DNA from: Roseicella sp. DB1501
GTDB lineage: Bacteria; Pseudomonadota; Alphaproteobacteria; Acetobacterales; Acetobacteraceae
Reading direction: 5' to 3'
NCBI RefSeq assembly: GCF_013112485.1
Contig: NZ_JABFHG010000003.1
Coordinates: forward strand, 434,001 to 498,000
Length of the DNA: 64,000 nt
Notes under the pieces: model-generated
What the model saw: only the letters and a program-made list of their open reading frames with translations
Told to the model about the DNA's origin: nothing
The model's database searches: none
Part shown: in pieces, positions 5,105-42,142 of the stretch
How the letters are laid out: the number at the start of each line of letters is the position of its first letter
Numbering within the stretch: the first letter of the stretch is position 1
Position numbers and translations under genes: made by a program

Positions 5105-5205
5105 TCCCCACGAAGCCGCTGCGCGTCTTCGCGGGGGCCCCGGGATTCGCACCTGATCCTCGACGCGTCACGGCCTGCCGTGGCGAAGCCACGGCAGGGC
5201 AACCG
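5105..5205 (+). repeat. Dispersed palindromic repeat family A, copy 1
   Basis: This is one of four related elements of about 100 bp (others at 12617-12715, 37725-37823 and 42043-42142). Hairpin 1 pairs CCCCACGAAG (5106-5115) with CTTCGCGGGG (5127-5136). Hairpin 2 pairs CTGCCGTGGC (5175-5184) with GCCACGGCAG (5188-5197) around a GAA loop. It fills the tail-to-tail gap between the GST gene and the TPR gene, so it may act as a terminator for both strands. Confidence 0.85.
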
Positions 5206-5231
5206 GGGGCGCGACTGCGGCAACGGGCGGC

Positions 5232-6029
5232 TCACCGGCGCTTCGGGCCGGCCTCGTTCAGCGCCAGGTTCTGCTGCGCCAGATCGGCCGCGGCGCTGTC
5301 GGGCGCGACGGCGAGCACCTGCTGCCAGTCCGCCCGCGCCCCCTTCGCATCGCCGCGGAGCTGGCGGAGGATGCCGCGCTCGAGCAACGCCTCGGCATTC
5401 CGCGGGGCGAGCGCCAGGGCGTGGTCCACCGCCTTCGCCGCTTCCGGCAGCCGGTCCAAGTGGCGCAACGCCGCCGCCTGGAAGACGAAGGCCTCGGCCC
5501 GGTCCGGCTCCGCCGCCGTGACGCGCGCCAGGTCCTCGAGCGATTCCCGGTAGCGGCCGAGCGTGCCGAGCGCCACCGCCCGGTCCAGCATCAAGCCGGT
5601 ATCGTCGGGCGCGATGGTCAGCCCCATGGTCGCCGCCGCGAAGGCGCGGCCGGCCTGGTTGGCCAGCATCCAGCCCTGCACCGCCTGGGCGAAGACCGCG
5701 GCGCGCGCCGTGGCGCTGGCGGCACTGTTGCGGGCCAGCGCCTCCAGCCGCTCGGCGGCCTTCTCCGGCTCGCCCAGCGCCAGCATGGCCAGCGCCCCGC
5801 ATTGCTTCGCTCCCTCGCCGCCGCCGGCGCCCTCCCAGCTCTCGGCGAAGCTGAGCGCGCCATCCGGATCGGTGCGGAGCAGGTCGAGGCATTCCTCGTA
5901 TTGCGGCCCCTCGGCGAGGCGCGGGATGTCGGGCGGCAGCGGCAGGGCCTCGTCGGCCGCCCGGGCACCACCCATGGCGAGCAGCAGGGCGATGGCGGCG
6001 CCGAACAGGGCAGGAAAGGGCCGGAACAC
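5232..6029 (-). CDS. Secreted tetratricopeptide repeat protein
   Basis: The 265-residue product begins with a clear signal peptide (FRPFPALFGAAIALLLAMGG then ARA, cleavage near residue 25). The rest is alanine-rich helical TPR-type repeats, for example RAEAFVFQAAALRHLDRLPE and PRNAEALLERGILRQLRGD. TPR domains are protein-interaction scaffolds, so a periplasmic assembly or scaffold role is likely. The partner is unknown. It is transcribed away from the SDR gene across a 47-nt divergent gap. Confidence 0.8.
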   Translation of the reverse strand: MFRPFPALFGAAIALLLAMGGARAADEALPLPPDIPRLAEGPQYEECLDLLRTDPDGALSFAESWEGAGGGEGAKQCGALAMLALGEPEKAAERLEALARNSAASATARAAVFAQAVQGWMLANQAGRAFAAATMGLTIAPDDTGLMLDRAVALGTLGRYRESLEDLARVTAAEPDRAEAFVFQAAALRHLDRLPEAAKAVDHALALAPRNAEALLERGILRQLRGDAKGARADWQQVLAVAPDSAAADLAQQNLALNEAGPKRR

Positions 6030-6076
6030 GCGGCGGAGCCTAGCCGCGCGGGCGAATCCACGCCAGATCGGAGGGC

Positions 6077-6952
6077 ATGACGGAGCGTAATCCTGGAAGG
6101 CTGGTCGTCGCCGGCCTTGGCTATAGCGGCAGCGCCGTGGCGCGGGCCGCCGCGGCGGCGGGCTGGCAGGTGACCGGCACGGCGCGCGATCCGGCCGGCG
6201 CGGCGCCGCCCCCCGGCGTCGATGTCGTCGCCTTCGCGGCGGCCGGACCCGCGATCGCGGCGGCGACGCATCTCCTCGTCACCGCCGCGCCGGGCGAGAC
6301 GGGCGACCCGGTGCTGGCCGCGCATGAGCCGGCGATCCGCGCCGCCCCGGCGCTGCGCTGGATCGGCTATGTCTCGACCACCGGCGTCTATGGCGATCGC
6401 GGCGGCGCCTGGGTGGACGAGGCGACGCCGCCCGCGCCGGGGCAGGGGCGCAGCCAGCGGCGGCTGGCGGCGGAGGAGGCCTGGCGGGCGGCGGCGGCCG
6501 GGCGGGCGCTCGACCTGATGCGGGCCGCCGGCATCTACGGCCCCGGCCGCAGCGCCCTCGACGACCTGCGCGCCGGCCGGGCCCGCCGCATCCACAAGCC
6601 CGGCCATCTCTTCGGCCGCATCCACCGCGACGACATCGCCCATGCCGTGCTCGCCGCCCTGCGCCAGGCGGTGCCGCCCGGGCTGCGGGTGCTGCATCTC
6701 GCGGATGACGAGCCGGCGGAGAATGCCGCGGTGGTGGCGGAGGCGGCGCGGCTGCTCGGCCTCGACCCGCCGCCGCTCATCGACTTCGCCGCGGCGCTGC
6801 CGGCGATGTCGCCCATGGCGCGCAGCTTCTGGGCGGAGAACCGCCGCATCGGCAATGCCGCGACCAAGGCGGCGCTCGGCCTCGCCTGGCGCTATCCGAG
6901 CTACCGCGAGGGGCTGCGGGCGATCCTGGCGGAGGAGTCGGGGGCGGGCTGA
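6077..6952 (+). CDS. NAD(P)-binding SDR / epimerase family protein (YeeZ-like)
   Basis: The protein has 291 residues. The N-terminal Rossmann nucleotide-binding motif reads GLGYSGSAVARAAAAAG (residues 13-29). YVSTTGVYGD in the middle and MRAAGIYGPGR further on are typical of atypical extended SDRs related to YeeZ. Substrate and reaction cannot be assigned from sequence. It converges on the alpha/beta hydrolase gene with only 9 nt between the two stops, one of the few convergent junctions here without a family A repeat. Confidence 0.85.
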   Translation: MTERNPGRLVVAGLGYSGSAVARAAAAAGWQVTGTARDPAGAAPPPGVDVVAFAAAGPAIAAATHLLVTAAPGETGDPVLAAHEPAIRAAPALRWIGYVSTTGVYGDRGGAWVDEATPPAPGQGRSQRRLAAEEAWRAAAAGRALDLMRAAGIYGPGRSALDDLRAGRARRIHKPGHLFGRIHRDDIAHAVLAALRQAVPPGLRVLHLADDEPAENAAVVAEAARLLGLDPPPLIDFAAALPAMSPMARSFWAENRRIGNAATKAALGLAWRYPSYREGLRAILAEESGAG

Positions 6953-6961
6953 AGGCAGCCG

Positions 6962-8883: not shown

Positions 8884-9078
8884 TCCGTATTCCTCCCTGC
8901 CGGTCCGGCGCGGCAGCCTAATCGAGTCCGCGCGGGCGGGAAGCCCCCAGGAGCGGTCAGGGGAGGCGGTCAAGGAGGGAGGCCGTGCCGGATGGGCTTG
9001 CCGGCGGGCGGGGTTATGGCCGACCATCGCCCCGCAACAGGGGCGGGCACGCATCCGCCTCCGAACGGGGAGAGGTCC

Positions 9079-10823: not shown

Positions 10824-11743
10824 TGCCGCAGGATGCCGCCATCCTGGCCGCGCCGGCACGGGCGGCCGGCGCCGGCCGGCGTCGCAACTATGCGCGGCGC
10901 TATGCCTGGTTCGTCGTGCCGGCGGCGGCGGTGGTCATCGCCGTCATCCTCTTCCCCTGGCTCTTCACCCTCTACGTCTCGGCCTTCGACTGGCATCTCG
11001 GCAGCGAGCGGCGCTGGGTCGGGCTCGACAACTACGCCCGCCTCTTCGCCGATGCGCGCTTCGGCTGGGCGGTGCTGCGGACCCTGTTCTACACCGCCCT
11101 CGCGGTGGTGGCGCCGATGCTGCTCGGCCTCGCCGCGGCGCTCTGCTTTCACCGCCGCTTCCCGCTGCGCGGCCTGGCGCGCACCGTCTTCATCCTGCCG
11201 ATGATGGCGACGCCGGTCGCCGTCGCCCTGGTCTGGACCATGATGTTCCACCCGCAGCTCGGCGTGCTGAACTGGCTGCTGACGCAGGTGGGGCTGCCGC
11301 CCTCCATGTGGGTCTACAGCGCCGACACCGTCATCCCGACGCTGGTCATCGTCGAGGTCTGGCACTGGACGCCGCTGGTGATGCTGCTGATCCTGGGCGG
11401 CCTCGCCTCGCTGCCGCAGGACCCCTACGAGGCGGCGAAGATCGACGGCGCCAGTGCCTGGCAGGCCTTCCGCCACGTCACCCTGCCGCTGCTGGCGCCC
11501 TTCATCGTCGTCGCGCTCATCATCCGCAGCATCGATGCGCTGAAGGCCTTCGACACCATCTACGTGATCACCCAGGGCGGGCCGGGACAGGCGAGCGAGA
11601 CGATCAACATCTTCCTCTACCTGCAGGCCTTCGCCTTCTACAATGTCGGCTATGCCAGCGCGGTGGTGGTGGTGTTCTTCGCCATCATCATGGCCCTCGC
11701 CGCGCTGCTGCTCTGGACCCGCGCCCGGGTGCGCGTGACATGA
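10823..11743 (+). CDS. Sugar ABC transporter permease 1 (CUT1, MalF/UgpA-type)
   Basis: The 306-residue inner-membrane protein has about six transmembrane segments (first at roughly residues 28-50). The conserved EAA loop reads EAAKIDGASAWQAFRHVTLP, which docks the ATPase. The start at 10823 overlaps the upstream stop (TGATG). It pairs with the next gene to form the channel. No ATPase gene lies in the operon, so an ATPase encoded elsewhere, such as an MsmK/UgpC-type subunit, must be shared. Confidence 0.92.
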   Translation: MPQDAAILAAPARAAGAGRRRNYARRYAWFVVPAAAVVIAVILFPWLFTLYVSAFDWHLGSERRWVGLDNYARLFADARFGWAVLRTLFYTALAVVAPMLLGLAAALCFHRRFPLRGLARTVFILPMMATPVAVALVWTMMFHPQLGVLNWLLTQVGLPPSMWVYSADTVIPTLVIVEVWHWTPLVMLLILGGLASLPQDPYEAAKIDGASAWQAFRHVTLPLLAPFIVVALIIRSIDALKAFDTIYVITQGGPGQASETINIFLYLQAFAFYNVGYASAVVVVFFAIIMALAALLLWTRARVRVT

Positions 11744-12612
11744 GCGGCGCCGCGACCCGTCCCGCGCCGCGGCACGCGCCGCTCCGGTACCGGCTGCGCC
11801 GGCTGCTGGAACGGCTCGGCTTCGGCCTCGCCGTGCTGGCGCTGGTCTCGCCGGCGGTGCTGGTCTTCCTCTGGATGCTGTCGCTCTCGCTGAAGACCGA
11901 GCTCGACAACACGGCCTGGCCGCCGGTCTTCATCCCCGACCCGCCGACGCTCGAGAATTACCGCGAGGTCTTCGCCCGCAACGACTTCCTGCTCTATGCC
12001 TGGAACAGCGTGGTGGTCTCGGTTTCGGCGACCGGCCTCGCCCTGCTGGTCGGCGTGCCGGCGGGCTACGGCATCGCCAAGATGCGGGCGATGCGGGCGG
12101 CGGCGCTGATCCTGATCGCCCGCATCACCCCGGGCCTCTCCTACCTCATCCCGATGTTCCTGCTGTTCCAGTGGCTGGAGCTCACCGGGACGCTGGTGCC
12201 GATCGTCATCTCGCACCTCGTCATCACCGTGCCCATCGTGGTCTGGGTGATGATCTCCTTCTTCGAGGGGCTGCCGGGCGAGCTGGAGGAGGCGGCGCTG
12301 GTCGATGGCGCGACCATCTGGCAGGCCTTCCGGCACGTGGCGATGCCGCTGGCGCGGCCGGGCATTACGGTCGCCACCATCCTCGCCTTCATCTTCTCCT
12401 GGAACAACTTCGTCTTCGCCATGGTGCTGGCGGGGCGGGAGACGCGGACCCTGCCGGTCGCGGTGAACAACATGCTCACCTTCGAGCAGATCGCCTGGGG
12501 CCCGCTCTCGGCCGCGGCGCTGCTGGTCACCCTCCCGGTGCTGTTGCTGACCCTGCTGGCGCAGCGGCAGATCGTCGCCGGGCTGACCGCGGGCGGGGTG
12601 AAGGGGGCGTGA
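11740..12612 (+). CDS. Sugar ABC transporter permease 2 (CUT1, MalG/UgpE-type)
   Basis: The product is 290 residues with about six membrane helices and the EAA loop EEAALVDGATIWQAFRHVAMP. The ATG at 11740 overlaps the stop of permease 1 by 4 nt. It is the last gene of the importer operon. A family A repeat begins 4 nt after its stop codon. Confidence 0.92.
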   Translation: MSGAATRPAPRHAPLRYRLRRLLERLGFGLAVLALVSPAVLVFLWMLSLSLKTELDNTAWPPVFIPDPPTLENYREVFARNDFLLYAWNSVVVSVSATGLALLVGVPAGYGIAKMRAMRAAALILIARITPGLSYLIPMFLLFQWLELTGTLVPIVISHLVITVPIVVWVMISFFEGLPGELEEAALVDGATIWQAFRHVAMPLARPGITVATILAFIFSWNNFVFAMVLAGRETRTLPVAVNNMLTFEQIAWGPLSAAALLVTLPVLLLTLLAQRQIVAGLTAGGVKGA

Positions 12613-12616
12613 TTGT

Positions 12617-12715
12617 TCCCCGCGACGTCGCTGCGCGGCGTCGCAGGGCCTCGGGATTTGCTTCCGGTCGAAGGTCCGTCACAGCCTGCCGCGACGAATC
12701 CGCGTCAGGGCAACG
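12617..12715 (+). repeat. Dispersed palindromic repeat family A, copy 2 (divergent)
   Basis: This is the most diverged family A copy. Hairpin 1 keeps its pairing with different bases (GCGACG with CGTCGC). Hairpin 2 keeps CTG-CCGCG pairing with CGCG-T-CAG with one mismatch. As in the other copies it sits right after the stop of a plus-strand gene in a convergent junction, here facing the S8 protease. The rest of the 12613-12911 gap holds a family C copy and one further hairpin. Confidence 0.75.
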
Positions 12716-12769
12716 GGTGGCGGCGGGCTTGCCGGGATGGGTTGCGTCCGGGCCTGGAGGTCCGGACGC

Positions 12770-12845
12770 CTAGAGCGTGACTCACGCGATCAAGCAACGG
12801 CCTGGACCATGATCCGCGACCCTGTGTGAGCGGATCATGATCCAG
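12770..12845 (+). repeat. Dispersed repeat family C, copy 1 (internally deleted)
   Basis: It begins CTAGAGCGTGA, lacks about 30 nt present in the other two copies, and ends with the palindrome ATGATCCGC (12809-12817) / GCGGATCAT (12830-12838). Copies 2 (15796-15900, inverted) and 3 (18038-18142) share the phrase CAACGGCCTGGACCATGATC. It lies downstream of the S8 protease gene. Confidence 0.85.
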
Positions 12846-12875
12846 CCCTGTTGCGGCAACAGGGATCTCAACGGC

Positions 12876-12911: not shown

Positions 12912-15581
12912 TCAAACCAGCTCCGCCTCCGCCGTGCGGCCCTCAAGGATGCCGTAGCTGAGGAAGTGCAGCAGCGGGTCGACCCCCGCGGCCGCGACAT
13001 CGGCGTAGCGGTGCAGATAAGCCTCGGTGTCGAAGGCCGCCGAGGGGTCGCGCCCTTCCCGCCAGCCATAGATCTGGTAGTGCAGCAGCGGGTCGAGCCC
13101 GGCCGCGGCGACGTCCGTGTTGTTCGTCAGGTAGAAGTCGGTGTCGAAATAGGCATTCGGGTCGCGCCCCTCCTGCCAGCCATATTCCCGCCAGTGCAGC
13201 ATCGGGTCGACGCCCGCCAGGGCGACGTCCGGGTTGTCCAGCGCGTAGTAGGTGGGATCGAAGTCGCCCTGCAGCGCCTCGCCATCGGCCACCGGGGAGA
13301 AGCGGCGCCCTTCCGTCTGGCCGTATTGCAGCCAGTGCAGCAGCGGGTTCAGCCCGGCCGCCGCGACATCCGGGTTGAAGTGCAGGTAGATCGAGCCGTC
13401 GAAATTGGCCGAGGGGTCATGGCCCTGCTGCCAGCCGACCCAGGCATAGTAGTCGAGCGGGTTCACCCCCGAATCCCGCACGTCCTGGTGGTTCGCCAGG
13501 TAGCTGGTGGTGCTGAACCAGGGATTGGGATCGCGCCCCTGCTGCCAGCCCTCGGTGGCGTAGTGGATGTCGGCGGCGACGCCGGAGGCGTACACATCCG
13601 GGTTGTTCTGCGCGTAGTAGACGCCGCGGACCATCGGGTTGCTGCCGATGGTGATGCTGCCGTCACTGAACTGCAGCGTCTCGACCTCCGAGATGGTGTC
13701 GTAGCTGTCCTTGCCGGCGACCACCACCCAGCGTCCGCTGGCGAACTCGGAATAGGCGTCGAGCGGGCGCAGCAGCTTCACCGTGTCGTGGCCGTCGCCG
13801 CCCTCGGTGACGTTGGCGCCGCGGCCGGGGGCGAAGAGCGTGTCGCCGGCATCGCCGTAGATCACGTCGTCCCCGTCGCCGCCCTGGAACGCGACGACGC
13901 GGGCGGCGGGGTTGATCACCGAGGCCGTGTCGCCGATGTCGAGCTGGTATCCCGGCAGGTCCAGGATCATGCCGCTCGTCACCGCCGCGGCGTTGATCGA
14001 GATCTGGTTGCTGGCCGAGGACAGCATCAGGCGCGAGGAGTCGATGGCGGCGAGGGAGGCGAAGTCGTCCGTGTAGACGAACTCCTTCACGCCGCCCACC
14101 GGTGCGCCCGTGACCTCGATCGTGGCGTCGACCAGGCTCTCGACCACCGATGGGTCCTCGTTCAGGCTGAGGACGGAGAGCTTCCAGGTGCCGTCGATCG
14201 TCTCGCCCCAGAAGCCCGGCGTCGTCAGCGCGAAGCCGCCTTCGGGCCAGGCCATCGCATCCGTGCTCTTGGCGAATTGCAGCAGCGGGATCCGGGTGCC
14301 CGTGGGCGAGATCAGCTCGATCGCGAGGTTACCGGAATTGGGCGTGTCGAGATGCAGCGCCACGCTGACATGCTCGACCGTGCCGCTGCCGGTGAGGTGC
14401 AGCGGGATCGTGGTCCACTGCGCCGAGAGTGTCACGGCGCTGGGCGGCACATAGGCGGTCTCGTAGCTCAACGCGTTCGCGGCGGTCTTCGCGTCGCGGC
14501 CGATATAGCTCTCCGCCAGCCGCACCGCGGCATGCGCATCGACCAGGCCGAACCCGTAGTCGCGGTTGAACATCCGCCCGCCGCCATTCCAGGTGCCGGC
14601 GGCGCTGTTGATCCAGCCCGTCGCGGCCTCATCGGTGAGGCGCGCGGAGCTCGCCAGGATCTCCTGCACGTCCCGGTAGCCCAGCCCGGGATTGGCCTCC
14701 AGCATCAGCGCCACGACGCCGGAGACGAAGGGCGTCGCGGCGGAGGTGCCGTTGAAGTCGTAGGTGTAGTCGCCGGCGCTGCCCGCGGTGGTGTTGTAGC
14801 CGTCCGTGCCGGTGCGGTCCGTGGTGACGATGCCGTTGCCCGGCCGGGTCGCCACCTGGTCGGTCTGCGCGCCGCCCGGCGCCGAGATCAGCAGATCCGC
14901 GCCCGGCGTGCTGTAGGCGGTGGTGACGCCGTTGTTCTGCACCGCGCCGACGCTGATGACATAGGGGAGGTCGAGCTGCAGCTCGAGCACGCCGTCATCG
15001 CCGTCCGCCCGGCCGTTGCCGTTGGCGAAGACGATGATGGTGCCGAGGCCGTTGCGCCCCTGCGTGGCCAGCGCCTCGGCGCCCTCCTCCGGCATGGCGA
15101 AGGGGGTGGTGGCGCCCCAGCTGTTGTTCACCACGTCCATGCCGTCGGCCAGGGCGTGCTGGAAGGCGATGGTGAACTGGTCCGGCCGCACCGGGAAGGG
15201 CAGGTTCGCGCCGAAGCCGACATGATAGACGCCGAGCGTCGCATCCGGCGCGACGCCGACGCCGCCGATGCCGTTGGCCGCCGCGGCGATGATGCCGGCG
15301 ACCGCGGTGCCGTGATTCTCGTCCCGGCCCAGGGGATCGCCGCCCGGCTGGTCCTGCGCCGCGTCCCAGGTGGCAGCCAGGTCGATATTGGCCTGGAGAT
15401 CGGGGTGGTCGAGCTGGACGCCGGAATCGATCACCCCGACCCGGACCCCGCGGCCGGTATAGTCGATCCAGGCTGGCAGGACGTTAATGTCCATGCCGGC
15501 TCCGCCATGCGCCTGCCCGGTGTTGTGCAAGCCCCATTGATGGCGGAAAAGCGGGTCATACGGGATGTTGTTGACTGGCAT
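12912..15581 (-). CDS. S8 (subtilisin/kexin-like) protease with P-domain, RTX-like segment and C-terminal repeats
   Basis: The product is 889 residues. The start at 15581 is preferred over an in-frame ATG at 15629 because GGAGGGGG lies 4-11 nt upstream. The catalytic domain (about 1-370) has Asp52 in GVIDSGV, His90 in ENHGTAVAGI, oxyanion Asn187 in FANGNG and Ser280 in NGTSAATPFVSG. A P/Homo-B domain follows (about 384-492), then an RTX-like stretch (GGDGDDVIYGDAGD). The tail is six repeats of about 38-45 residues of the type YLxxNPDVAAAGxDPLLHYxxYGWxEGRDPxAxFD (about 640-885). No signal peptide is seen, so type I secretion is inferred; no secretion ABC/MFP genes lie nearby. It is probably an extracellular protease. 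Family C repeats in inverted orientation flank it. Confidence 0.92.
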   Translation of the reverse strand: MPVNNIPYDPLFRHQWGLHNTGQAHGGAGMDINVLPAWIDYTGRGVRVGVIDSGVQLDHPDLQANIDLAATWDAAQDQPGGDPLGRDENHGTAVAGIIAAAANGIGGVGVAPDATLGVYHVGFGANLPFPVRPDQFTIAFQHALADGMDVVNNSWGATTPFAMPEEGAEALATQGRNGLGTIIVFANGNGRADGDDGVLELQLDLPYVISVGAVQNNGVTTAYSTPGADLLISAPGGAQTDQVATRPGNGIVTTDRTGTDGYNTTAGSAGDYTYDFNGTSAATPFVSGVVALMLEANPGLGYRDVQEILASSARLTDEAATGWINSAAGTWNGGGRMFNRDYGFGLVDAHAAVRLAESYIGRDAKTAANALSYETAYVPPSAVTLSAQWTTIPLHLTGSGTVEHVSVALHLDTPNSGNLAIELISPTGTRIPLLQFAKSTDAMAWPEGGFALTTPGFWGETIDGTWKLSVLSLNEDPSVVESLVDATIEVTGAPVGGVKEFVYTDDFASLAAIDSSRLMLSSASNQISINAAAVTSGMILDLPGYQLDIGDTASVINPAARVVAFQGGDGDDVIYGDAGDTLFAPGRGANVTEGGDGHDTVKLLRPLDAYSEFASGRWVVVAGKDSYDTISEVETLQFSDGSITIGSNPMVRGVYYAQNNPDVYASGVAADIHYATEGWQQGRDPNPWFSTTSYLANHQDVRDSGVNPLDYYAWVGWQQGHDPSANFDGSIYLHFNPDVAAAGLNPLLHWLQYGQTEGRRFSPVADGEALQGDFDPTYYALDNPDVALAGVDPMLHWREYGWQEGRDPNAYFDTDFYLTNNTDVAAAGLDPLLHYQIYGWREGRDPSAAFDTEAYLHRYADVAAAGVDPLLHFLSYGILEGRTAEAELV

Positions 15582-15959
15582 GGTCCCCCTCCGAAAAGGT
15601 TCGGGAGGCCTGGATAGACGGCTGAACATTACCGGAGATTTATCCGTTCGTCATGTGCACTCTTGCGGAAATGTATCGTGACCGGGGCGGGGAGGCGGGC
15701 GGGACCGGGTCGTGGCGGGAGGCTGGCCGCGTCCCGGCGCGGTTGACGAACCGCCCCTGGGCGCCGAGGAAGCGCCACCGCCCATCGCCCGCCTAGAACC
15801 ATGATCCGCTCACACAGGGTCGCGGATCATGGTCCAGGCCGTTGCTTGATCGCGTGAGGCACGCTTTTCGGTGAGTCCAATTCAAGCGATCACGCTCTAG
15901 GACCTGCGCATGACCGATCCTTGGGACCCCGCCAGCCTTCGCGCCGCGGCGCCCGCCGG
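15582..15959. other. Divergent intergenic region with family C repeat
   Basis: This 378-nt gap separates the minus-strand protease from the plus-strand glycosyltransferase and must hold both promoters. The segment just upstream of the protease (15620-15690) is less GC-rich than the surroundings. Apart from the family C copy at 15796-15900 and a 17-codon ORF at 15910, nothing else could be recognised. Confidence 0.5.
15796..15900 (-). repeat. Dispersed repeat family C, copy 2 (full length, inverted)
   Basis: Read on the minus strand it begins CTAGAGCGTGATCGCTTG and ends with GGACCATGATCCGC...GCGGATCATGGTTC. It matches copy 3 (18038-18142) across its length and includes the block missing from copy 1. 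With copy 1 it brackets the protease gene as an inverted pair about 3 kb apart. Confidence 0.88.
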
Positions 15960-17126: not shown

Positions 17127-18040
17127 GCGAGCGCATCCTGGTCATCAAGCTCGCCGCCCTCGGCGACATCGTGCAGGCCTTCGGGCCCTTCGCCGCCATC
17201 CGGGCGCATCACCCCGGCGCCCATATCACTCTGCTGACCACGCCGCCCTATGCCGAGCTGGCGCGGCTCAGCCCCTGGTTCGACGCGGTCTGGACCGATG
17301 GCCGCCCCGCCGCCTCCGACCTGCGCGGGTTGTGGCGCCTCGGCCGCCGCCTGCGGGCCGCCCGCTTCGACCGGGTCTACGACCTGCAGACCTCCTCCCG
17401 CTCCTCGCGCTACCGGCTCCTCGTCGGGCGCGGCGCCGAGTGGTCCGGCATCGCGCGCGGCGCCAGCCACCCGCATGCCAACCCGCTGCGCGACCTGATG
17501 CACACCATCGAGCGGCAACGCGAGCAGCTCGAGATGGCCGGCATCCGGGATTTCCCCGCCCCCGACCTCACCTGGCTGGATGGCGACATCGCCGATCTCG
17601 GCCTGCCGCCGCGCTTCGCCCTGCTGGTCCCCGGCGCCTCGCCGCTGCGGCCGGGCAAGCGCTGGCCGGTGGCGAATTACGCGGCCCTGGCGGCGGGGCT
17701 GGATTGCCCGGTGGCGGTGGTCGGCGGCGCGTCGGAAGGCCCGCTGGCAGCGGCGATCCTGGCCGCCGCGCCGGGCGGCACCGACCTCACCGGCCGCACC
17801 AGTCTGGCGCGGCTCGGCGCCGTGGCGCGCCGCGCCGCCTTCGCGGTGGGGAACGACACCGGCCCGACGCATCTGATCGCCGCCGCCGGCTGCCCGACGC
17901 TGGCGCTGTTCGGCGCCGAGAGCGACCCGGCGCTCTGCGCCCCGCGCGGCCGCGCCGTCGCGGTGCTGCAGCGGGACAGCCTGGCGCGGCTGACGGTCGC
18001 CGAGGCGCGGGCGGCGCTGGCCGGGCTGGTGGCGCGGTAG
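17123..18040 (+). CDS. Glycosyltransferase family 9 (heptosyltransferase-like)
   Basis: The protein is 305 residues with the hallmark N-terminus RILVIKLAALGDIVQAFGPF and the C-terminal donor-site motif VGNDTGPTHLIAAAGCPTLALFG. Both are typical of ADP-heptose:LPS heptosyltransferases. It likely acts in LPS core assembly with the adjacent GT4 enzyme. Its ATG overlaps the upstream stop by 4 nt. Its TAG stop is the first three bases of family C repeat copy 3. Confidence 0.9.
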   Translation: MSERILVIKLAALGDIVQAFGPFAAIRAHHPGAHITLLTTPPYAELARLSPWFDAVWTDGRPAASDLRGLWRLGRRLRAARFDRVYDLQTSSRSSRYRLLVGRGAEWSGIARGASHPHANPLRDLMHTIERQREQLEMAGIRDFPAPDLTWLDGDIADLGLPPRFALLVPGASPLRPGKRWPVANYAALAAGLDCPVAVVGGASEGPLAAAILAAAPGGTDLTGRTSLARLGAVARRAAFAVGNDTGPTHLIAAAGCPTLALFGAESDPALCAPRGRAVAVLQRDSLARLTVAEARAALAGLVAR

Positions 18041-18142
18041 AGCGTGACCGCTTGAGGCGAAATCACCGGAAAGCGTGAAGCACGCGATCAAACAACGGCC
18101 TGGACCATGATCCGCGACCCTGTGTGAGCGGATCATGGTCTG
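18038..18142 (+). repeat. Dispersed repeat family C, copy 3
   Basis: The full-length copy starts TAGAGCGTGACCGCTTGAGG and ends with GGACCATGATCCGC...GCGGATCATGGTC (perfect 13-bp arms GACCATGATCCGC/GCGGATCATGGTC). The first three bases serve as stop codon of the GT9 gene. It fills much of the 245-nt gap before the MFS gene. Confidence 0.88.
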
Positions 18143-34409: not shown

Positions 34410-35392
34410 CCCCCTTCCGCTATGCCCGCGCCACCGAGGCGGGCGAGGCGGTGCGGCTCGCCGCCGAGGCCGGCGCCCGATATCTCGGCGGCGGCACCAA
34501 CCTCGTCGACCTGATGCGCGAGACGATCGAGCGGCCCGCCGCGCTGATCGACGTCACCGGCCTCGCCGCCACGATCAAGGAGACCGAGGCGGGGGGCCTC
34601 CGCATCGGCGCCGCCGCGCGCAACACCGCGCTGGCCGAGCACCGCGCGGTCCGCAGCCGCTACCCGGCCCTGGCCCGCGCCATCCTGGCCGGCGCCTCGG
34701 CGCAGATCCGCAACATGGCGACGGTCGGCGGCAACATCCTGCAGCGGACCCGCTGCACCTATTTCTATGACGATGCCGGCGCGCGCTGCAACAAGCGCAA
34801 CCCGGGCGAGGGCTGCGACGCCATCGACGGCTTCAACCGGTCGCATGCGATCCTCGGCGCCTCGCCCGCCTGCGTGGCGACGCATCCCTCCGACATGTGC
34901 GTCGCCCTCGCCGCCTTCGACGCGGTGGTGCATCTCGCCGGACCGGCCGGCGCGCGGCAGATGCCGCTGACCGAGCTGCACCGCCTGCCCGGCGGTCATC
35001 CCGAGATCGAGACCGCGCTGCGGCCGGGCGAGCTGATCACCGCCATCGAGCTGCCGCCCCTGCCGATCGCGGCGCGCTCCACCTATCGCAAGGTGCGGGA
35101 CCGGGCGAGCTATGCCTTCGCGCTGGTCTCGGTCGCCGCCGCGCTGGACGTGCGGGACGGCCGCGTCGCCGATGTCCGGCTGGCGCTCGGCGGCGTCGCG
35201 CACAAGCCCTGGCGCGCGCGGCGGGCGGAGGAGGCGCTGCGCGGCGGCCCCGCCACCGCCGCGGCCTTCCGGGTGGCGGCGGAGGCGGAGCTCGCCCCCG
35301 CCGCGCCGCTGCGGGACAACGGATTCAAGATCGAGCTGGCGACGCGCACGATCGCCGCCGTCCTCGGCGAACTGGCGGGAGAAGCCGCATGA
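34406..35392 (+). CDS. Aldehyde oxidoreductase FAD subunit with extra [4Fe-4S] site (PaoB/YagS-like)
   Basis: The 328-residue protein binds FAD through RYLGGGTNLVDLMRE and ATVGGNILQRT. Directly after this it has a cysteine-rich loop: Cys117 (RTRCTYFYD), Cys128 (ARCNKRNPG), Cys137 (GEGCDAIDG) and Cys156 (SPACVATHPSD). This matches the additional [4Fe-4S] site known from E. coli PaoB and absent from ordinary xanthine dehydrogenase FAD subunits. The match supports a PaoABC-type aldehyde oxidase over xanthine dehydrogenase. Confidence 0.92.
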   Translation: MTPFRYARATEAGEAVRLAAEAGARYLGGGTNLVDLMRETIERPAALIDVTGLAATIKETEAGGLRIGAAARNTALAEHRAVRSRYPALARAILAGASAQIRNMATVGGNILQRTRCTYFYDDAGARCNKRNPGEGCDAIDGFNRSHAILGASPACVATHPSDMCVALAAFDAVVHLAGPAGARQMPLTELHRLPGGHPEIETALRPGELITAIELPPLPIAARSTYRKVRDRASYAFALVSVAAALDVRDGRVADVRLALGGVAHKPWRARRAEEALRGGPATAAAFRVAAEAELAPAAPLRDNGFKIELATRTIAAVLGELAGEAA

Positions 35393-37722
35393 GCATCCTG
35401 GAGAACGCCAAGCAGACCGTGCAGGGCGCGGCGCAGGCGGCGATGAAGAAGGCGATCGCCCTGGCGCCCGATTCCTGGCTGCCCGGCGGCCAGCCCGACC
35501 CGCTCATCCGCCAGCAGCACGGGCTGATCGGGGCGCCCGTCTCGCGCCTCGACGGACCGCTGAAGGTGCGCGGCCAGGCGCCCTTCGCCGCCGAGTTTCC
35601 GCTCGATGGCATGGTCTATGCCGCGATCGCCTTCAGCGCGGTGGCCAAGGGCCGCATCGCCGCGCTCGACCTCGCCGCCGCGGAGGCCGCGCCCGGCGTT
35701 GTCCTGGTGATGACGCATGCGAACACGCCGCGCCTGCAGCCCATGCCGCTCTTCCTGACGGCGGAGAAGGCCGCGGGCGGCGACGACCTGCCGGTGATGC
35801 AGGACGACCGCATCCACTGGAACGGCCAGCCCATCGCGGTGGTGCTGGCCGAGACGCAGGAGCAGGCGGACCATGCCTCCTCCCTGATCCGCGCGACCTA
35901 CGAGGCGGAGCCGGCGACCATCGCCTTCGCCGAGGCCAAGGCGCAGGGCACCGAGCCCGGCCAGTTCATGGGCCAGCCGCTGAAGCTCGAGAAGGGCGAT
36001 GCCGAGGCGGCGCTGGCGGCATCGCCGGTCTCGGTGGATGCGACCTATGTGACGCCGCGCCACAACCACAACCCGATCGAGCCGCATGCGGCGACGCTCG
36101 CCTGGGATGGCGACCGGCTGCTGCTGCACGACGCCTCCCAGGCGGTCGCCCACACAGCCTGGTCGCTCGCCCAGGTCTTCGGCATCGAGGAGAAGCAGGT
36201 CCGCGTCACCTCGCCCTTCGTCGGCGGCGGCTTCGGCTCCAAGACGCTCTGGCAGCACCAGGTGCTCGGCGCGGCCGCGGCGAAGCTCGCGGGCCGGCCG
36301 GTGCGCATCGCCCTCTCGCGCGAGGGCATGCACCGGATGATCGGCGGCCGCACCCTGACGGAGCAGCGGGTCGCCATCGGCGCGCAGCCGGATGGCCGGT
36401 TCGAGGCGATCATTCATACCGGCACGGTGGCGATGACGCGGCACAACGCCCTGCCCGAGCCCTTCATCCTGCCGACGCGGAGCGCCTATGCCGCCGGCAG
36501 CCTGAAGCTGGACGTGGAGGTGGCGTACATGGACATGCTCGCCAACACCTTCATGCGGGCGCCGGGCGAGGCCGTCGGCACCTTCGCGCTCGAATGCGCG
36601 ATCGACGAGCTGGCGGCGAAGCTCGGCATGGATCCGGTCGAGCTGCGGATCCGCAACGAGCCGGAGCGGGACCCGGTCGAGGGCACGCCCTTCTCCGCCC
36701 GCCACATCGTCGAGGCCTGGCGCGCCGGCGCCGAGCGGTTCGGCTGGAGCCGGCGCAACCCGACCCCCGGCGCGGTGCGGGACGGGGAGTGGCTGGTCGG
36801 CCTCGGCTGCGCCACCGCCACCTATCCCTATTACCGGATGCCCGGCGGCGCGGCGCGCCTCACCCTGACGCGGGACGGCCGCGTGCGGGTGGAGATCGCG
36901 GCGCATGAGATGGGCATGGGCACCGCCACGGCGCAGAGCCAGGTGGTGGCCGAGCGGCTCGGCCTGCCGCTCGAGGCGGTGAGCTTCGCCTATGGCGATT
37001 CCTCGCTGCCCGGTGTCGTCCTCGCCGGCGGCTCGCAGCAGACGGCGGCGATCGGCGCGGCGGTGGCGGCGGCGCATCGCGTGCTGGTGGCCGAGCTGCT
37101 GCAGCTCGCCGGCAATGATTCGCCGCTGGCCGGACTGAAGCCGGAGGAGGTTGGCGGCCTCGATGGCGGCCTTGCCGGGCTGGAGGAGCCCGCGCGCCGG
37201 GAGAGCTACGCCTCCATCCTCGCCCGCGCCGGGCGCGAGGCGGTGGTGGCCGAGGCCAGCGCGCCGCCGCCGCTCGAGACGCAGCATTGGTCGATGCATT
37301 CCCACGGCGCGATGTTCTGCGAGGCGCGCGTCAACCGCATCACCGGCGAGCCGCGGATCAGCCGCTTCCTGGGCTCGATGGATTGCGGCCGCATCCTCAA
37401 CGCCAAGACCGCGGCGAGCCAGTTCCGCGGCGGCATCATCATGGGCCTCGGCCTGGCGCTGATGGAGGAGACGCAGTTCGACGAGCGCAAGGGGCGGATC
37501 ATGAATCCGAGCCTCGCCGAGTACCATGTGCCGGTGCATATGGACGTGCCGGAGATCGACGTGATCTGGACCGACATCCCCGATCCGCACGCCCCGATGG
37601 GCGCGCGGGGCGTCGGCGAGATCGGCATCACCGGCACCGGCGCGGCGGTGGCGAACGCCATCTTCAACGCCACCGGCCGGCGGGTGCGCGACCTGCCGAT
37701 CACGCTCGACAAGCTGCTGTGA
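35389..37722 (+). CDS. Aldehyde oxidoreductase molybdopterin subunit (PaoC/YagR-like)
   Basis: The product is 777 residues of the xanthine oxidase family large subunit: PVSRLDGPLKVRGQAPFAAE at the N-terminus, then SPFVGGGFGSKTLWQHQ, ANTFMRAPGEAVGTFALECA and GARGVGEIGITGTGAAVANA near the C-terminus. The last contains the catalytic Glu region that binds the Mo cofactor. It would oxidise aldehydes to acids. Start overlaps the FAD gene by 4 nt. No PaoD/XdhC-type cofactor-insertion chaperone is seen in the window. A family A repeat starts 2 nt after its stop. Confidence 0.92.
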   Translation: MSILENAKQTVQGAAQAAMKKAIALAPDSWLPGGQPDPLIRQQHGLIGAPVSRLDGPLKVRGQAPFAAEFPLDGMVYAAIAFSAVAKGRIAALDLAAAEAAPGVVLVMTHANTPRLQPMPLFLTAEKAAGGDDLPVMQDDRIHWNGQPIAVVLAETQEQADHASSLIRATYEAEPATIAFAEAKAQGTEPGQFMGQPLKLEKGDAEAALAASPVSVDATYVTPRHNHNPIEPHAATLAWDGDRLLLHDASQAVAHTAWSLAQVFGIEEKQVRVTSPFVGGGFGSKTLWQHQVLGAAAAKLAGRPVRIALSREGMHRMIGGRTLTEQRVAIGAQPDGRFEAIIHTGTVAMTRHNALPEPFILPTRSAYAAGSLKLDVEVAYMDMLANTFMRAPGEAVGTFALECAIDELAAKLGMDPVELRIRNEPERDPVEGTPFSARHIVEAWRAGAERFGWSRRNPTPGAVRDGEWLVGLGCATATYPYYRMPGGAARLTLTRDGRVRVEIAAHEMGMGTATAQSQVVAERLGLPLEAVSFAYGDSSLPGVVLAGGSQQTAAIGAAVAAAHRVLVAELLQLAGNDSPLAGLKPEEVGGLDGGLAGLEEPARRESYASILARAGREAVVAEASAPPPLETQHWSMHSHGAMFCEARVNRITGEPRISRFLGSMDCGRILNAKTAASQFRGGIIMGLGLALMEETQFDERKGRIMNPSLAEYHVPVHMDVPEIDVIWTDIPDPHAPMGARGVGEIGITGTGAAVANAIFNATGRRVRDLPITLDKLL

Positions 37723-37724
37723 GC

Positions 37725-37823
37725 TCCCCACGAAACCGCTTCGCGGCTTCGTGGGGGCCCCGGGAGTCCCTCGGTGCCCAAGAGGCGGCACAGCCTGCCG
37801 AGGCGAAGCCTCGGCAGGGCAAC
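37725..37823 (+). repeat. Dispersed palindromic repeat family A, copy 3
   Basis: Hairpin 1 pairs CCCCACGAA-A-CCG with CGG-C-TTCGTGGGG, the fullest pairing of the four copies (the A/C mismatch of copies 1 and 4 is A-T here). Hairpin 2 is CTGCCGAGGC-GAA-GCCTCGGCAG. It occupies nearly the whole junction between the molybdopterin subunit gene and the convergent ATPase gene. Confidence 0.88.
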
Positions 37824-37850
37824 GGGCGGCGACGAGGTTGAGGGGCGCTC

Positions 37851-38774
37851 CTACCCTCGCCGCGCCGCCTCCAGCAGCGCGTCCAGCGTCACCGCCCGGC
37901 CATCCGCCAGCGGCACCGCCCGCACCCCGCGCGCCAGCATGGCGGCGAGCGCGTCGCGCAGCGAGGCGCCCTCCGGCAGCCGCTCCCCCGGCATGGCCTG
38001 CCCCGTCGCCGCCCCCTCGGCCGGCAGCAGCGCCAGGCGTTGCAGCGCCCGGTCGCTGCCGAGGAAGCCGGCGACGAAAGCATCCGCCGGATGCGCCAGC
38101 AGCGCCGCCGCCGGCGCATGCTGCGCCAGCCGCCCGTCGCGCAGCACCGCGACCGCATCGCCGAGCCGCACCGCCTCGTCCAGGTCGTGGGTGACGATCA
38201 GCACGGTCTTGCGGAGCTGCTTCAGCAGCCGCAGCACCTCCTCCTGCAGATGCGCCCGCACCACCGGATCGACCGCGCCGAAGGGCTCGTCCATCAGCAG
38301 CACCGGCGGGTCGCCGGCCAGCGCCCGGGCGACGCCGACCCGCTGCCGCTCGCCGCCCGAGAGCTGGTGCGGCCGGCGCGCGGCGAAGCGGCCGGGATCG
38401 AGCCCGGCCATGGCCAGCACCTCCTCCACCCGCGCGGCGATGCGCGGCGCCGGCCAGCCGAGGAGGCGCGGCACCGTCGCCACGTTCTCGGCGACGCTGC
38501 GGTGCGGGAACAGCCCGACTTCCTGGATGACATAGCCGATGCCGCGCCGCAGCCGCACCGGGTCCAGGCGCAGCGCATCCTCGCCGCCGATGCGCAGCCG
38601 CCCGCCGCTCGGCTCGATGAGGCGGTTGACCATGCGCAGCGTCGTCGTCTTGCCCGAGCCCGAGGGACCGATCAGGGCGCAGCTCGTCCCCTCCGGCACC
38701 GAGAGCGTCAGGTCCTCCACCGCGGCGGCGCCGGCGCCGGGCCAGCGCTTGGTCAGCCCTTCGAGCTCGATCAT
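37851..38774 (-). CDS. Osmoprotectant (glycine betaine/choline) ABC transporter ATPase
   Basis: The 307-residue ATPase has Walker A GPSGSGKTT (36-44), signature LSGGERQRVGVARAL (138-152) and Walker B VLLMDEP (158-164). The QEVGLFPHRSVAENVA Q-loop is typical of the OpuCA/ProV branch. About 60 C-terminal residues resemble a reduced CBS-like regulatory tail. Its ATG overlaps the stop of the preceding permease, whose end has been rebuilt by a family B repeat. It is last in the four-gene importer operon. Confidence 0.92.
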   Translation of the reverse strand: MIELEGLTKRWPGAGAAAVEDLTLSVPEGTSCALIGPSGSGKTTTLRMVNRLIEPSGGRLRIGGEDALRLDPVRLRRGIGYVIQEVGLFPHRSVAENVATVPRLLGWPAPRIAARVEEVLAMAGLDPGRFAARRPHQLSGGERQRVGVARALAGDPPVLLMDEPFGAVDPVVRAHLQEEVLRLLKQLRKTVLIVTHDLDEAVRLGDAVAVLRDGRLAQHAPAAALLAHPADAFVAGFLGSDRALQRLALLPAEGAATGQAMPGERLPEGASLRDALAAMLARGVRAVPLADGRAVTLDALLEAARRG

Positions 38775-40188: not shown

Positions 40189-41099
40189 CAGCCGAGGCCC
40201 TGCGCCGCCAGGAAGCGCGCCGCCACCTCGCGCGGCTCGTCGCCATCCTGGTCCACCTGCCGGTTCAGCTCCTGCGCCACCCGGTTGTCGAGCCGGGCGC
40301 CGATGCGCTCGAGCGGCGCGGCGAGGCCGGGCCACGCCGCCAGCGCCGCCTGCCGCACCACGGCGGCGAGCTGGTAGGGCGGCCAGAGATGCCGGTCGTC
40401 CCGCAGCACCGTGTAGCCGCCGACGGCGATCTGCCAGTCGGTCGCATAGGCGTTCACCACATCCGCCTGGCCGTGCTGCAGCGCGGCGTAGCGCAGGCCG
40501 AGGGCGGCGAATTGCCGGAAGCGGCCGAAGCGCATGCCATAGACCCGCTGCAGCCCCGGCAGCCCGTCGGCGCGGTCGGCGAACTCGTTGCCGGCGGCGA
40601 GCGTCAGCCCGGGCGCGGCGCGGGCGAGGTCGGAGAGGGTGATGAGGCCGAGGCGCTTCGCCGTCGCCGGCAGCACCAGCAGCGCATTGCCGTTGTCGAT
40701 GCCCGAGGGGGCGAGCCAGGTGCAGCGGAATTCCCGCTCGTAGCCGGCGCGGACCTTGCGCAGCACCGCCTCCGCCGTCCCCTCCGGCGGCTGCTTCAGC
40801 ACCACGCCGAGGCCGGTGCCGGTGTATTCCGGGTAGAGGTCGATCTCGCCCGCGACCAGCGCCTGCTGCGCGATGGCGGTGCCGCCGAGGTTCAGCCGCC
40901 GCTCGACCCGCGCCCCGGCCCGTTCCAGCCCCTGGGCGAAGAGCTCGCCGACCACGAGCTGCTCGGTGAAGTTCTTCGACCCCACGCGCAGCAGCGGCGC
41001 CGCCCGGGCGGGACGCGCCAGCAAGGCGGGCAGGGCGAGCAGCCCGCGCCGTGCCAGGGCATGGCCGGGGGAGAGGCCGGGGGGCGGCGGGCGGTTCAT
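40188..41099 (-). CDS. Glycine betaine/choline-type ABC substrate-binding protein (OsmF/OpuAC-like)
   Basis: The 303-residue protein has a signal region (RRGLLALPALLARPARA) followed by the family start LRVGSKNFTEQLVVGELFAQ and EIDLYPEYTGTGL, the classic quaternary-amine binding features. It would capture betaine-like solutes in the periplasm. It is the first gene of the operon and is divergent from the inositol-phosphatase-family gene with a gap of about 120 nt. Confidence 0.92.
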   Translation of the reverse strand: MNRPPPPGLSPGHALARRGLLALPALLARPARAAPLLRVGSKNFTEQLVVGELFAQGLERAGARVERRLNLGGTAIAQQALVAGEIDLYPEYTGTGLGVVLKQPPEGTAEAVLRKVRAGYEREFRCTWLAPSGIDNGNALLVLPATAKRLGLITLSDLARAAPGLTLAAGNEFADRADGLPGLQRVYGMRFGRFRQFAALGLRYAALQHGQADVVNAYATDWQIAVGGYTVLRDDRHLWPPYQLAAVVRQAALAAWPGLAAPLERIGARLDNRVAQELNRQVDQDGDEPREVAARFLAAQGLG

Positions 41100-41220
41100 T
41101 GCGGGAGACTAGGCTGGGTTCGGCGCGGCTGGGAATGCCCAGTTGGGAATGCCCGGCAGGCGCGCCTTGACCATGGCCCGCCGCCGGCCGCCAATGGGCC
41201 GGCGGCGGGAAGGAGGCGGG

Positions 41221-42060
41221 ATGCGGTTCACCACCGGCGATGCGCGGCGGCTCGGCGCCATCCTGGCCGAGGCGGCGCGGGCCGAGATCATGCCGCGCTT
41301 CACCCGCCTCGCCGCCGGGGAGGTGCGCGAGAAGACCTCCGCCTTCGACGTGGTGACCGAGGCCGACGAGGCGGCGGAGCGCCGGGCGAGCGCCGCCATC
41401 CTCCGCGCCTGGCCCGGCGCCGCCGTCATCGGCGAGGAGGCGAGCGAGCGCGATCCCGCGCTGCTGGACAGCCTCGGCACGGCCGAGCTCGCCATCCTGC
41501 TGGACCCGCTGGACGGCACCCGGAACTTCACCGCCGGCCTGCCGCTCTTCGGCATCATGGCGGCGGCGGTGGTGCGGGGCGAGGTGGTGATGGCCGCCCT
41601 CCACGACCCGCTCTGCCGCGACACCGCGCTGGCGCTGCGCGGCGAGGGCGCCTGGCGCGAGGCGGAGGACGGGCGGCAGGCGGCGCTGCGGGTCGCCGCG
41701 CCGGTGCCGGTCGGGCGGATGGAGGCGATCATCGGCACCAATTTCCTGCCCGAGCCGCTGCGTGGCACCGTCAACGGCAATCTCGCGCGGCTCGGCATGA
41801 GCGCCTGGCTGCGCTGCGCGGCGCAGGAATACCGCATGGCGGCGGCGGGGCATTGCCACCTGCTCTTCTACAACCGGCTGATGCCCTGGGACCACGCGCC
41901 GGGCTGGCTGCTGCACCGCGAGGCGGGCGGCCACAGCGCGCAGTTCGACGGCTCGCCCTATCGGCCGGTGGCGCGGAGCGGCGGCCTGATCTGCGCCCCC
42001 GATGCGGCGAGCTGGGCGGCGGCGCGCGAGGCACTCCTCCAATCCCCACGAAGTCGCTGA
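41221..42060 (+). CDS. Inositol monophosphatase family protein
   Basis: The 279-residue Mg-dependent phosphatase has GEEAS (about 71-75), DPLDGTRNF (95-103) and WDHAPGWLL, the three metal and substrate motifs of the IMPase/HisN/CysQ superfamily. Substrate is uncertain (inositol phosphate, histidinol phosphate or another). GGAAGGAGG precedes ATG 41221. The last five residues (SPRSR) and the TGA stop are encoded by family A repeat copy 4. Confidence 0.88.
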   Translation: MRFTTGDARRLGAILAEAARAEIMPRFTRLAAGEVREKTSAFDVVTEADEAAERRASAAILRAWPGAAVIGEEASERDPALLDSLGTAELAILLDPLDGTRNFTAGLPLFGIMAAAVVRGEVVMAALHDPLCRDTALALRGEGAWREAEDGRQAALRVAAPVPVGRMEAIIGTNFLPEPLRGTVNGNLARLGMSAWLRCAAQEYRMAAAGHCHLLFYNRLMPWDHAPGWLLHREAGGHSAQFDGSPYRPVARSGGLICAPDAASWAAAREALLQSPRSR

Positions 42061-42142
42061 CGCGCCTTCGCGGGGGCCCCGGGATTCGCTCCTGATCCTG
42101 GCTGCGTCACAGCCTGCCGAGGCGAAGCCTCGGCAGGGCAAC
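42043..42142 (+). repeat. Dispersed palindromic repeat family A, copy 4 (overlaps a gene end)
   Basis: Hairpin 1 is CCCCACGAAG/CTTCGCGGGG; hairpin 2 is CTGCCGAGGC-GAA-GCCTCGGCAG. It is close to copy 1 over its full length. Unlike the other copies it begins inside the plus-strand gene and supplies its stop codon; it ends 11 nt from the stop of the convergent methyltransferase gene. Confidence 0.88.

Follow-up and report, generated by a model that had tools for sequence, protein, structure and literature searches.

A two-hairpin palindromic repeat positioned next to stop codons in the genome of Roseicella sp. DB1501

The 5.99-Mb genome of Roseicella sp. DB1501 contains at least 150 copies of a two-hairpin palindromic repeat, and the true rule that governs their placement is a fixed polarity relative to the upstream gene and its stop codon, not location in convergent junctions. 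On balance, we favour the view that this REP-like palindromic element has undergone multiplication in some Roseomonadaceae and provides the preceding gene with a ready-made 3' end.

The repeat unit and its four copies in the window

The window, i.e. the whole stretch of DNA analysed, comprises 64,000 nucleotides of this genome. The four copies that the first-pass annotation had recognized at positions 5105, 12617, 37725 and 42043 are real, and all are located on the plus strand between convergent genes. The length of 100 bp given for them covers only the core; alignment of the copies defines a unit of ~130 nt consisting of hairpin 1, a linker, hairpin 2 and a tail 3' of hairpin 2, which is the less conserved part. 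Both stems are GC-rich and 11-15 bp long, with 3-nt loops. The copies are as follows (scores from CM R1, whose training set included all four).

5105..5238, plus strand, copy 1 (114 bits; also sequence and alignment), hairpin 1 at ~5105-5137 and hairpin 2 at ~5174-5198
12617..12747, plus strand, copy 2 (111 bits; also sequence)
37725..37856, plus strand, copy 3 (133 bits; also BLASTN query and sequence)
42043..42175, plus strand, copy 4 (119 bits)

The flanking genes, called with our own gene caller and assigned to families by Pfam, are listed below.

4490..5101, plus strand, upstream of copy 1, glutathione S-transferase family (GST_N_2)
5232..6029, minus strand, convergent partner at copy 1, TPR protein
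11740..12612, plus strand, upstream of copy 2, ABC transporter permease (BPD_transp_1)
12912..15581, minus strand, convergent partner at copy 2, subtilase-family protease
35389..37722, plus strand, upstream of copy 3, molybdopterin-dependent dehydrogenase
37851..38774, minus strand, convergent partner at copy 3, ABC transporter ATPase
41221..42060, plus strand, upstream of copy 4, inositol-monophosphatase family
42154..42984, minus strand, convergent partner at copy 4, methyltransferase

With copy 3 as the sole query, BLASTN identified another 40 genomic matches (E ≤6e-19 for 39 of these), which places the four window copies far beyond chance; copy 2 is the only window copy missing from these matches. 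In Rfam, at the gathering score, the repeat had no match, two tRNAs being the sole matches in the window, and no published description of the family was found in the literature searched, in which subscription journals were thinly covered. A GANTC methylation site is present in 93 of 148 linkers (14.5 expected after shuffling), but by our reading it decays like the adjacent positions and thus probably reflects shared ancestry.

Copies 1, 2 and 3 begin 3, 4 and 2 nt past the TAG, TGA and TGA stop codons, respectively, of their upstream genes, in agreement with the 2-4 nt initially proposed. The start of copy 4 had been placed inside the 3' end of its gene, and this gene indeed extends 18 nt into hairpin 1, the source of its final codons (SPRSR) and of its stop codon (42058-42060). 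In G024, a close relative, the stop at this site is the same and likewise lies within hairpin 1, which is followed by a second hairpin 1. Homologues of the gene with ~62% identity have their own stop at about the same point, and judging from these sequences the native stop appears to have been replaced at copy 4.

According to our gene calls, eight convergent junctions are present in the window, four of which carry the repeat. The first-pass annotation had remarked that convergent junctions with almost no gap lack it; this is correct for three, whose gaps of 9-16 nt are too small for the repeat, but the fourth repeat-free junction has a gap of 92 nt.

Placement, polarity and variation among relatives

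The earlier proposal that the repeat occurs only in tail-to-tail junctions did not survive the genome-wide scoring of flanking genes that had been set beforehand. The 148 copies that could be classified comprise 91 in convergent junctions, 54 in tandem junctions on the strand of the genes, 3 in tandem junctions on the opposite strand and none in divergent junctions; copies between tandem genes are thus common (57/148), whereas the absence from divergent junctions stands. Likewise, the shared orientation noted for the four window copies does not extend to the genome, where the 91 convergent copies divide into 60 plus and 31 minus in the arbitrary orientation of the contigs. A same-strand gene lies upstream of 145 of the 148 copies, and hairpin 1 starts 0-6 nt past its stop in 118 of these 145, most commonly at 3-4 nt. 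In 17 of the 27 copies outside this range, inspection revealed intervening repeat material, namely extra hairpin-1 units (nine copies), hairpin-1 remnants (two) or an inserted second repeat (six); the remaining 10 have no such material to account for the distance. The exceptions to the rule are the three tandem-opposite copies and a solo hairpin 1 located in a divergent junction; a search for upstream coding frames gave no convincing one at any of these sites.

This distribution is far from random. When 37 elements were placed randomly on contig C1 by Monte Carlo simulation, ~5.0 convergent, 10.3 tandem-same, 10.3 tandem-opposite and 11.3 divergent positions were expected, compared with 25, 12, 0 and 0 observed, and 27 of the 37 copies start 0-6 nt past a stop against an expectation of 0.78 within 6 nt. 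Preferential insertion at gene ends, as suggested earlier, is therefore strongly supported by the genome-wide counts, and it is also backed by occupied and empty sites between close relatives.

Gain or loss of the repeat was observed between such relatives: it is missing from G024 at 4 of 10 comparable junctions, and the G024 copy at C17:11963-12094 occupies a site that is empty in DB1501. Orthologous sites also vary in the number of hairpin-1 units, indicating that local remodelling occurs as well. Within the genus, presence is all-or-none: two genomes carry at least 150 and 141 copies, respectively, and three carry none, and the repeat is thus not essential at the genes concerned. The same stop-adjacent placement recurs in other genera. 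Of 26 loci in nine other genomes, 25 could be classified (three of them from the same genus), and 23 have a same-strand upstream gene, 19 within 6 nt. A search with the exact hairpin-1 pattern yielded 28 loci; genes were called on both sides at 26, and a same-strand gene lies upstream at 25 of the 26. The two sets overlap by five loci.

The genes that carry the repeat also differ at their stop codons. TGA is used by 47 of 118 repeat-bearing genes but by 218 of 302 control genes (C1 genes that lack the element and have a gap of ≥50), TAG and TAA being far commoner at genes with the repeat. An AT-rich stretch lies beside hairpin 1 on its outer side only and corresponds to the stop codon plus spacer; at least five of the eight positions are A or T in 70 of 118 copies and in 33 of 302 controls. 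Post-stop flanks in element-free relatives look GC-rich by eye.

Several of these observations are also consistent with a selfish repeat that is brought to stop codons by a putative enzyme, its placement reflecting target choice and its hairpins being kept for the mobility machinery. The all-or-none presence within one genus, the occupied and empty sites, the genus-specific variants of hairpin 2, the AT-rich leader and shifted choice of stop codon where sites are filled, and the apparent replacement of the native stop at copy 4 would all fit this explanation. However, a Y1/RAYT-type transposase (PF01797) was found in none of the 10 carrier genomes, in a search confined to this family that gave matches in 5 of 14 control genomes, E. 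coli among them. Neither target duplications nor terminal inverted repeats, the hallmarks of a MITE, were seen by eye in the empty/filled comparisons, in which intergenic DNA was too diverged to align; moreover, the spacing of 0-6 nt is variable, unlike a fixed target site, and the differing hairpin-1 numbers at orthologous sites point to local remodelling. We regard this explanation as possible but less likely than a ready-made 3' end. A similarly tentative proposal is that of a stop-codon-targeted mobile 3' UTR, delivered in one orientation by a putative mover, which would have taken over the stop region and 3' UTR of >100 genes in one clade, sister species having none.

Hairpin conservation and possible roles in RNA

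In the alignment of copies, both stems were shown to be kept by compensatory change. In this alignment, which was fitted to the structure, both-side changes were found at 12 of 19 stem pairs (6.1 in shuffles) and 94.0% of cells are paired (88.9% in shuffles), and among pair types that pair the strongest covariation is located in the stems. A hairpin in the tail followed by a T tract was considered as a gene-strand terminator and dropped, since covariation of the tail stem did not exceed that in shuffles.

Of 134 copies, 106 have a hairpin 1 whose stability is greater on the strand opposite the gene, and in 112 of 133 the gene strand gives the better fold of the tail. Mismatches were compared as a possible sign of strand-specific RNA folding. 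Those in hairpin 1, excluding the end pair, comprise 37 G.U and 160 A.C, and those in hairpin 2 comprise 20 and 45, respectively. The A.C excess in hairpin 1, and with it the difference in stability, comes from three positions shared among copies (6-28, 9-25 and 11-23), the other pairs, again without the end pair, giving 30 G.U and 29 A.C; the end pair 1-33 opposes the trend, with 92 T.G. Twenty-two rows from other genera gave 4 G.U and 25 A.C in hairpin 1, mostly at the same positions, and no A.C excess in hairpin 2 (2 and 1).

Under the favoured reading as a REP-like 3' end, the repeat would act in RNA, with its hairpins working at transcript ends. Hairpins 1 and 2 may cap the message of the upstream gene as a barrier to 3' exonucleases, or they may mark where trimming of a longer transcript stops once Rho-type termination has occurred. 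Between convergent genes, these palindromes are also part of the opposing transcript and could limit its run into the neighbouring gene, and the AT-rich stop-plus-spacer beside hairpin 1 could be a weak-hybrid release point for opposite-strand transcripts. In line with this reading, strong hairpins are also about twice as frequent 0-9 nt past the stop as farther away among the 302 element-free genes, a modest excess, and T tracts are rare there.

A bidirectional terminator role of the repeat is possible, but we consider it improbable that the element is a canonical bidirectional intrinsic terminator, with a hairpin and a U tract on both strands, that has spread as a cassette. The convergent bias on C1 (25 of 102 convergent junctions occupied versus 12 of 428 tandem) and the AT-rich outer flank of hairpin 1 favour such a terminator, and there is an alphaproteobacterial precedent with A-enriched 5' flanks at convergent and in-line genes in the available part of PMC7566282. 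On the gene strand, however, the hairpins are followed by GCCCC (hairpin 1) or AACGGG, not by a T tract; the possible tail hairpin lacks covariation, the outer AT stretch is only moderately T-rich on the opposite strand (mean 2.4 T of 8), and tandem junctions harbour 57 of the 148 copies. The sequences do not support canonical U-tract termination.

A DNA-level element, i.e. a nucleoid, gyrase or replication protein site tolerated only at gene ends, could account for the GTCACA and CAACGGG motifs that are conserved outside the stems near hairpin 2 among copies of the DB1501 genome, but is very unlikely, given that it does not predict the strict polarity toward the stop or the tandem bias (54 versus 3), that the flank sequence near hairpin 2 differs from genus to genus, and that no link to local GC skew is apparent on C1, with agreement in 7 of the 19 convergent copies listed. 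The contigs are unordered, and this skew is uninformative on the orientation of the element relative to replication.

Comparison with known repeats and terminators

Clustering at gene ends is a known property of REP-like repeats, and whether this reflects targeting or selection is in question. The tight anchoring described here, together with carrier and non-carrier genomes in one genus with comparable junctions, makes this question testable, and the repeat provides a natural set of 3'-end swaps for gauging hairpins without a U tract in a high-GC genome. Liang, Rudd and Deutscher reportedly dealt with a translational role of REPs located near stop codons.

As far as the available text of PMC3733652 describes them, the GTAG, RAYT-associated REP/BIME elements are likewise high-copy extragenic palindromes located 3' of convergent or tandem genes, frequently no more than 20 bp from a stop codon, and roles at the mRNA level have been proposed for them. 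The repeat described here shares their extragenic location 3' of genes and their rarity in divergent junctions (0/148 copies, with one solo hairpin 1). Unlike REP/BIME, it is a ~130-nt unit with two unlike hairpins and a fixed polarity to the stop codon, and no conserved GTAG was seen at the palindrome foot on inspection of the 31-copy and 135-copy consensus. A RAYT-mobilized REP is ruled out by the absence of PF01797 from the 10 carrier genomes searched.

CGTC-tagged REPs are also palindromes found at the 3' ends of alphaproteobacterial genes, and they lack a dedicated transposase; according to the same partial source (PMC3733652), their stems of 8-9 bp open with A-T pairs, their loops measure 4-5 nt, their tails are CCA, and they are absent from Acetobacteraceae. 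The longer, GC-rich stems and 3-nt loops found here differ from these. A CGTC does occur at a distance of 4 nt from the stem of hairpin 2 in 106 of 135 DB1501 copies and at that spot in 9 of 11 Roseicella frigidaeris rows, but in none of 43 rows from other genera; membership among CGTC-REPs is ruled out by the stem, the loop and the position of the tag, which is not adjacent to the stem.

The Bor, Ype and Efa repeated stem-loops are similarly found near coding regions, Ype and Efa near gene 3' ends, and mRNA stabilization has been proposed for such repeats (PMC1590033, in the part available). They belong to other taxa and seem to be of other kinds, a distinction drawn from their description, not from sequence, and the available part of that paper (PMC1590033) describes for them no stop-codon anchoring like that observed here. 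Finally, the bidirectional intrinsic terminators of Zymomonas, as presented in the accessible portion of PMC7566282, share with the present element a hairpin at convergent junctions and an A-enriched 5' flank, whereas the element described here lacks a U tract, forms a repeated family and occupies many tandem sites as well.

Structure and copy number of the repeat unit

The first-pass annotation had correctly positioned the four window copies (5105, 12617, 37725 and 42043), which are all on the plus strand, all between convergent genes, and alike along their full length, with a mean column identity of 80% (138 columns including flanks, mutual alignment). The unit, delimited by aligning 30 BLASTN loci and copy 2, is about 130 nt long rather than the 100 bp originally assigned to it. 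It comprises, in order, hairpin 1 (TCCCC...GGGGG), GCCCC, a linker, GTCACA, hairpin 2 (GCCTGCCG...CGGCAGGGC), AACGGG, and a variable tail, and has no Rfam match. Searching the genome by BLASTN with copy 3 returned at least 41 matches, itself included (40 of 212 candidates scored); among the matches listed, 39 besides itself have E values of 6e-19 or better, and copy 2 is absent. A covariance model built from 31 copies of this genome identified at least 150 copies (151 matches, 150 candidates scored), and the true number is probably higher.

In an alignment of 135 copies (100 sources searched), which was fitted to the structure and thus leans towards it, both-sided changes were found in 12 of 19 stem pairs, against 6.1 in shuffles. 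A scan of all column pairs placed stem pairs 10-24, 77-87, and 8-26 within the top four; the other, 12-22, lies inside hairpin 1 and does not keep standard pairing on the gene strand, where it covaries but is mostly non-Watson-Crick (C-G 57, T.C 43, C.T 21). The opposite strand reads G-C, G.A, and A.G at this pair. In 106 of 134 copies the better hairpin-1 fold is the one on the opposite strand to the gene, but this bias is not relied on because the excess is due to three shared positions. GANTC, a possible CcrM methylation site, occurs in 93 of 148 linkers (model columns 39-45), with all four bases found at N.

Placement relative to genes

Placement was analyzed in the whole of contig C1 of this genome (702,909 nt), which served as an unbiased sample, and in 100 stretches around other listed copies, with genes called by a self-trained script. 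At a model score of at least 31.6 bits, C1 contains 37 copies, 25 in convergent junctions, 12 in tandem junctions on the genes' strand, and none in tandem-opposite or divergent positions; the background comprises 102 convergent, 428 tandem, and 103 divergent junctions. Twenty-seven of the 37 start 0-6 nt past a stop codon. Under random insertion into the intergenic space of C1, 0.78 of 37 copies would lie no more than 6 nt from a stop and 11.3 would land in divergent junctions, and among 20,000 such runs none gave zero divergent copies and none gave 25 or more convergent ones.

Two of the 150 copies listed genome-wide are too close to contig ends for classing; among the other 148, 91 are convergent, 54 tandem on the same strand, 3 tandem on the opposite strand, and none divergent. 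The proposal that the family is confined to convergent junctions does not hold: 57 copies are tandem, even if divergent ones are absent. A convergent junction fits a rule tying hairpin 1 to an upstream stop in either orientation, so the informative observations are the tandem ratio (54 versus 3) and the stop distance, which is 0-6 nt in 118 of 145 copies (convergent, 71/91; tandem, 47/54). Among the 27 outside this range, the printed sequences of nine carry one or two extra hairpin-1 units right after the stop; two others have hairpin-1 remnants there, six have a second repeat between stop and element, and 10 lack such an explanation. The rule is broken by the three tandem-opposite copies, behind whose stop-like triplets no convincing coding frame was found, and by a hairpin 1 standing alone in a divergent junction (C1:161613).

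Stop-codon usage differs between the 118 genes with an element at 0-6 nt (TAG 49, TGA 47, TAA 22) and the 302 C1 genes that lack it and are followed by a gap of 50 nt or more (TGA 218, TAG 66, TAA 18; Fisher p = 1.4e-9). An AT-rich stop and spacer (five or more A/T in eight positions) was found at 70/118 copies versus 33/302 controls. The spacer sequence is not fixed, GAAC being the most frequent tetramer ahead of hairpin 1 (19/148).

Other repeats were also observed. The second, palindromic, CTAG-bounded and of about 106 bp (TAGACCATGATCCGC...GATCACGCTCTAG), lies in the window at about 12771-12840, about 15798-15899, and 18038-18139, has many copies in this genome (90-96% identical), and is present in the same-genus genome G024; in six element copies it separates the stop codon from hairpin 1, which makes it look like a MITE with CTAG targets. 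A third (AGCAGATCCCGTTCGAGTGG...CACTCGAACGGG) and a fourth (TACCGAGGGCACGAAGG...CTTCGTGCC) repeated hairpin directly follow several C1 stops without the main element:

Genes ending near 265,532, 368,094, and 425,716, minus strand: third/fourth hairpin, first group
Gene ending near 428,194, plus strand: third/fourth hairpin, first group
Near 187,064 and 266,481, minus strand: third/fourth hairpin, second group

A 27-nt direct repeat array (window 21325-21982) lies inside the coding region of gene 20002-22038 (minus strand).

Occurrence in relatives and empty sites

Under stricter filters, 150 genomes sampled across the family yielded 10 with model matches, representing 6 of 102 genera, one of them through just one match; among 385 sampled across the class, the single genome matched was this one. 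Within the genus, normal filters gave 141 copies in G024, at least 150 here, and none in G112, G150, and G151. An exact hairpin-1 pattern, which favours perfect hairpins, was scanned over genome contigs (own-genome or near records may be missing) and found 28 stretches, from Siccirubricoccus phaeus and soli, Belnapia moabensis and mucosa, a Roseomonas mucosa MAG, Falsiroseomonas algicola and oryziterrae, Roseicella frigidaeris, and an uncultured Craurococcus. Shared exact 400-mers identify G024 as R. frigidaeris or very near, and the relatives' genomes G036 and G063 as B. mucosa and S. phaeus, respectively; a taxonomy look-up of Roseicella, Siccirubricoccus, and Belnapia places all three in Roseomonadaceae. 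Our genome is accordingly likely to be a Roseicella as well. Of 26 relatives' loci, one too short to class, 23/25 have a same-strand upstream gene and 19/25 lie within 6 nt of it (three are from G024, and the G044 and G124 loci are identical). Both neighbours were called at 26/28 exact-pattern loci, 25/26 with a same-strand upstream gene; five loci are common to both sets.

The upstream genes of 11 copies were sought in G024, G112, and G150, and for one stretch in G151. Copy 3 has no usable G024 match, leaving 10 junctions, at which G024 carries the element at five (one being only a hairpin-1 remnant in our genome), a tail remnant at one, and none at four. The other three genomes have it at none of the recovered junctions, some identified by matches of 62-78% identity that may be paralogues, as expected from their zero copies. 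Conversely, G024 copy C17:11963-12094 separates two aligned stretches that abut in our genome, where the model finds none. At several empty sites the stop is at the same codon, followed by other DNA. At copy 4, hairpin 1 encodes the SPRSR terminus of our protein and that of R. frigidaeris, whereas homologues (about 62% identical) have a stop of their own two residues past the shared ALL/TLL. No target duplication is readable at occupied/empty sites, where intergenic DNA does not align. The element is a polarised, stop-anchored, structured repeat that has been gained or lost on a recent time-scale.

Possible function and comparison with known repeats

We infer that the element functions as a message end. 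A function combined with spread is the reading we somewhat favour, because the spacing varies and because unrelated hairpins sit at that position in some of the remaining genes. In element-free genes, such hairpins are roughly twice as dense 0-9 nt past the stop as they are further off, seldom with a T tract, so the element fits a gene-end style found elsewhere in this genome. That targeting alone produces the placement seems rather doubtful on the same two observations, although the two readings are not exclusive.

According to PMC3733652, GTAG termini provide TAG stops, REPs lie mainly between convergent or unidirectional genes, where their distance from the 3' end is often <20 bp, and the CGTC-REPs of alphaproteobacteria are without transposase and missing from Acetobacteraceae; PMC1590033 describes a general preference of stem-loops for 3' ends. 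The Y1/RAYT family, which mobilises GTAG-REPs, is absent from all 10 carrier genomes tested. Compared with REPs as described in PMC3733652, the element is alike in behaviour but lacks the defining sequence features tested.
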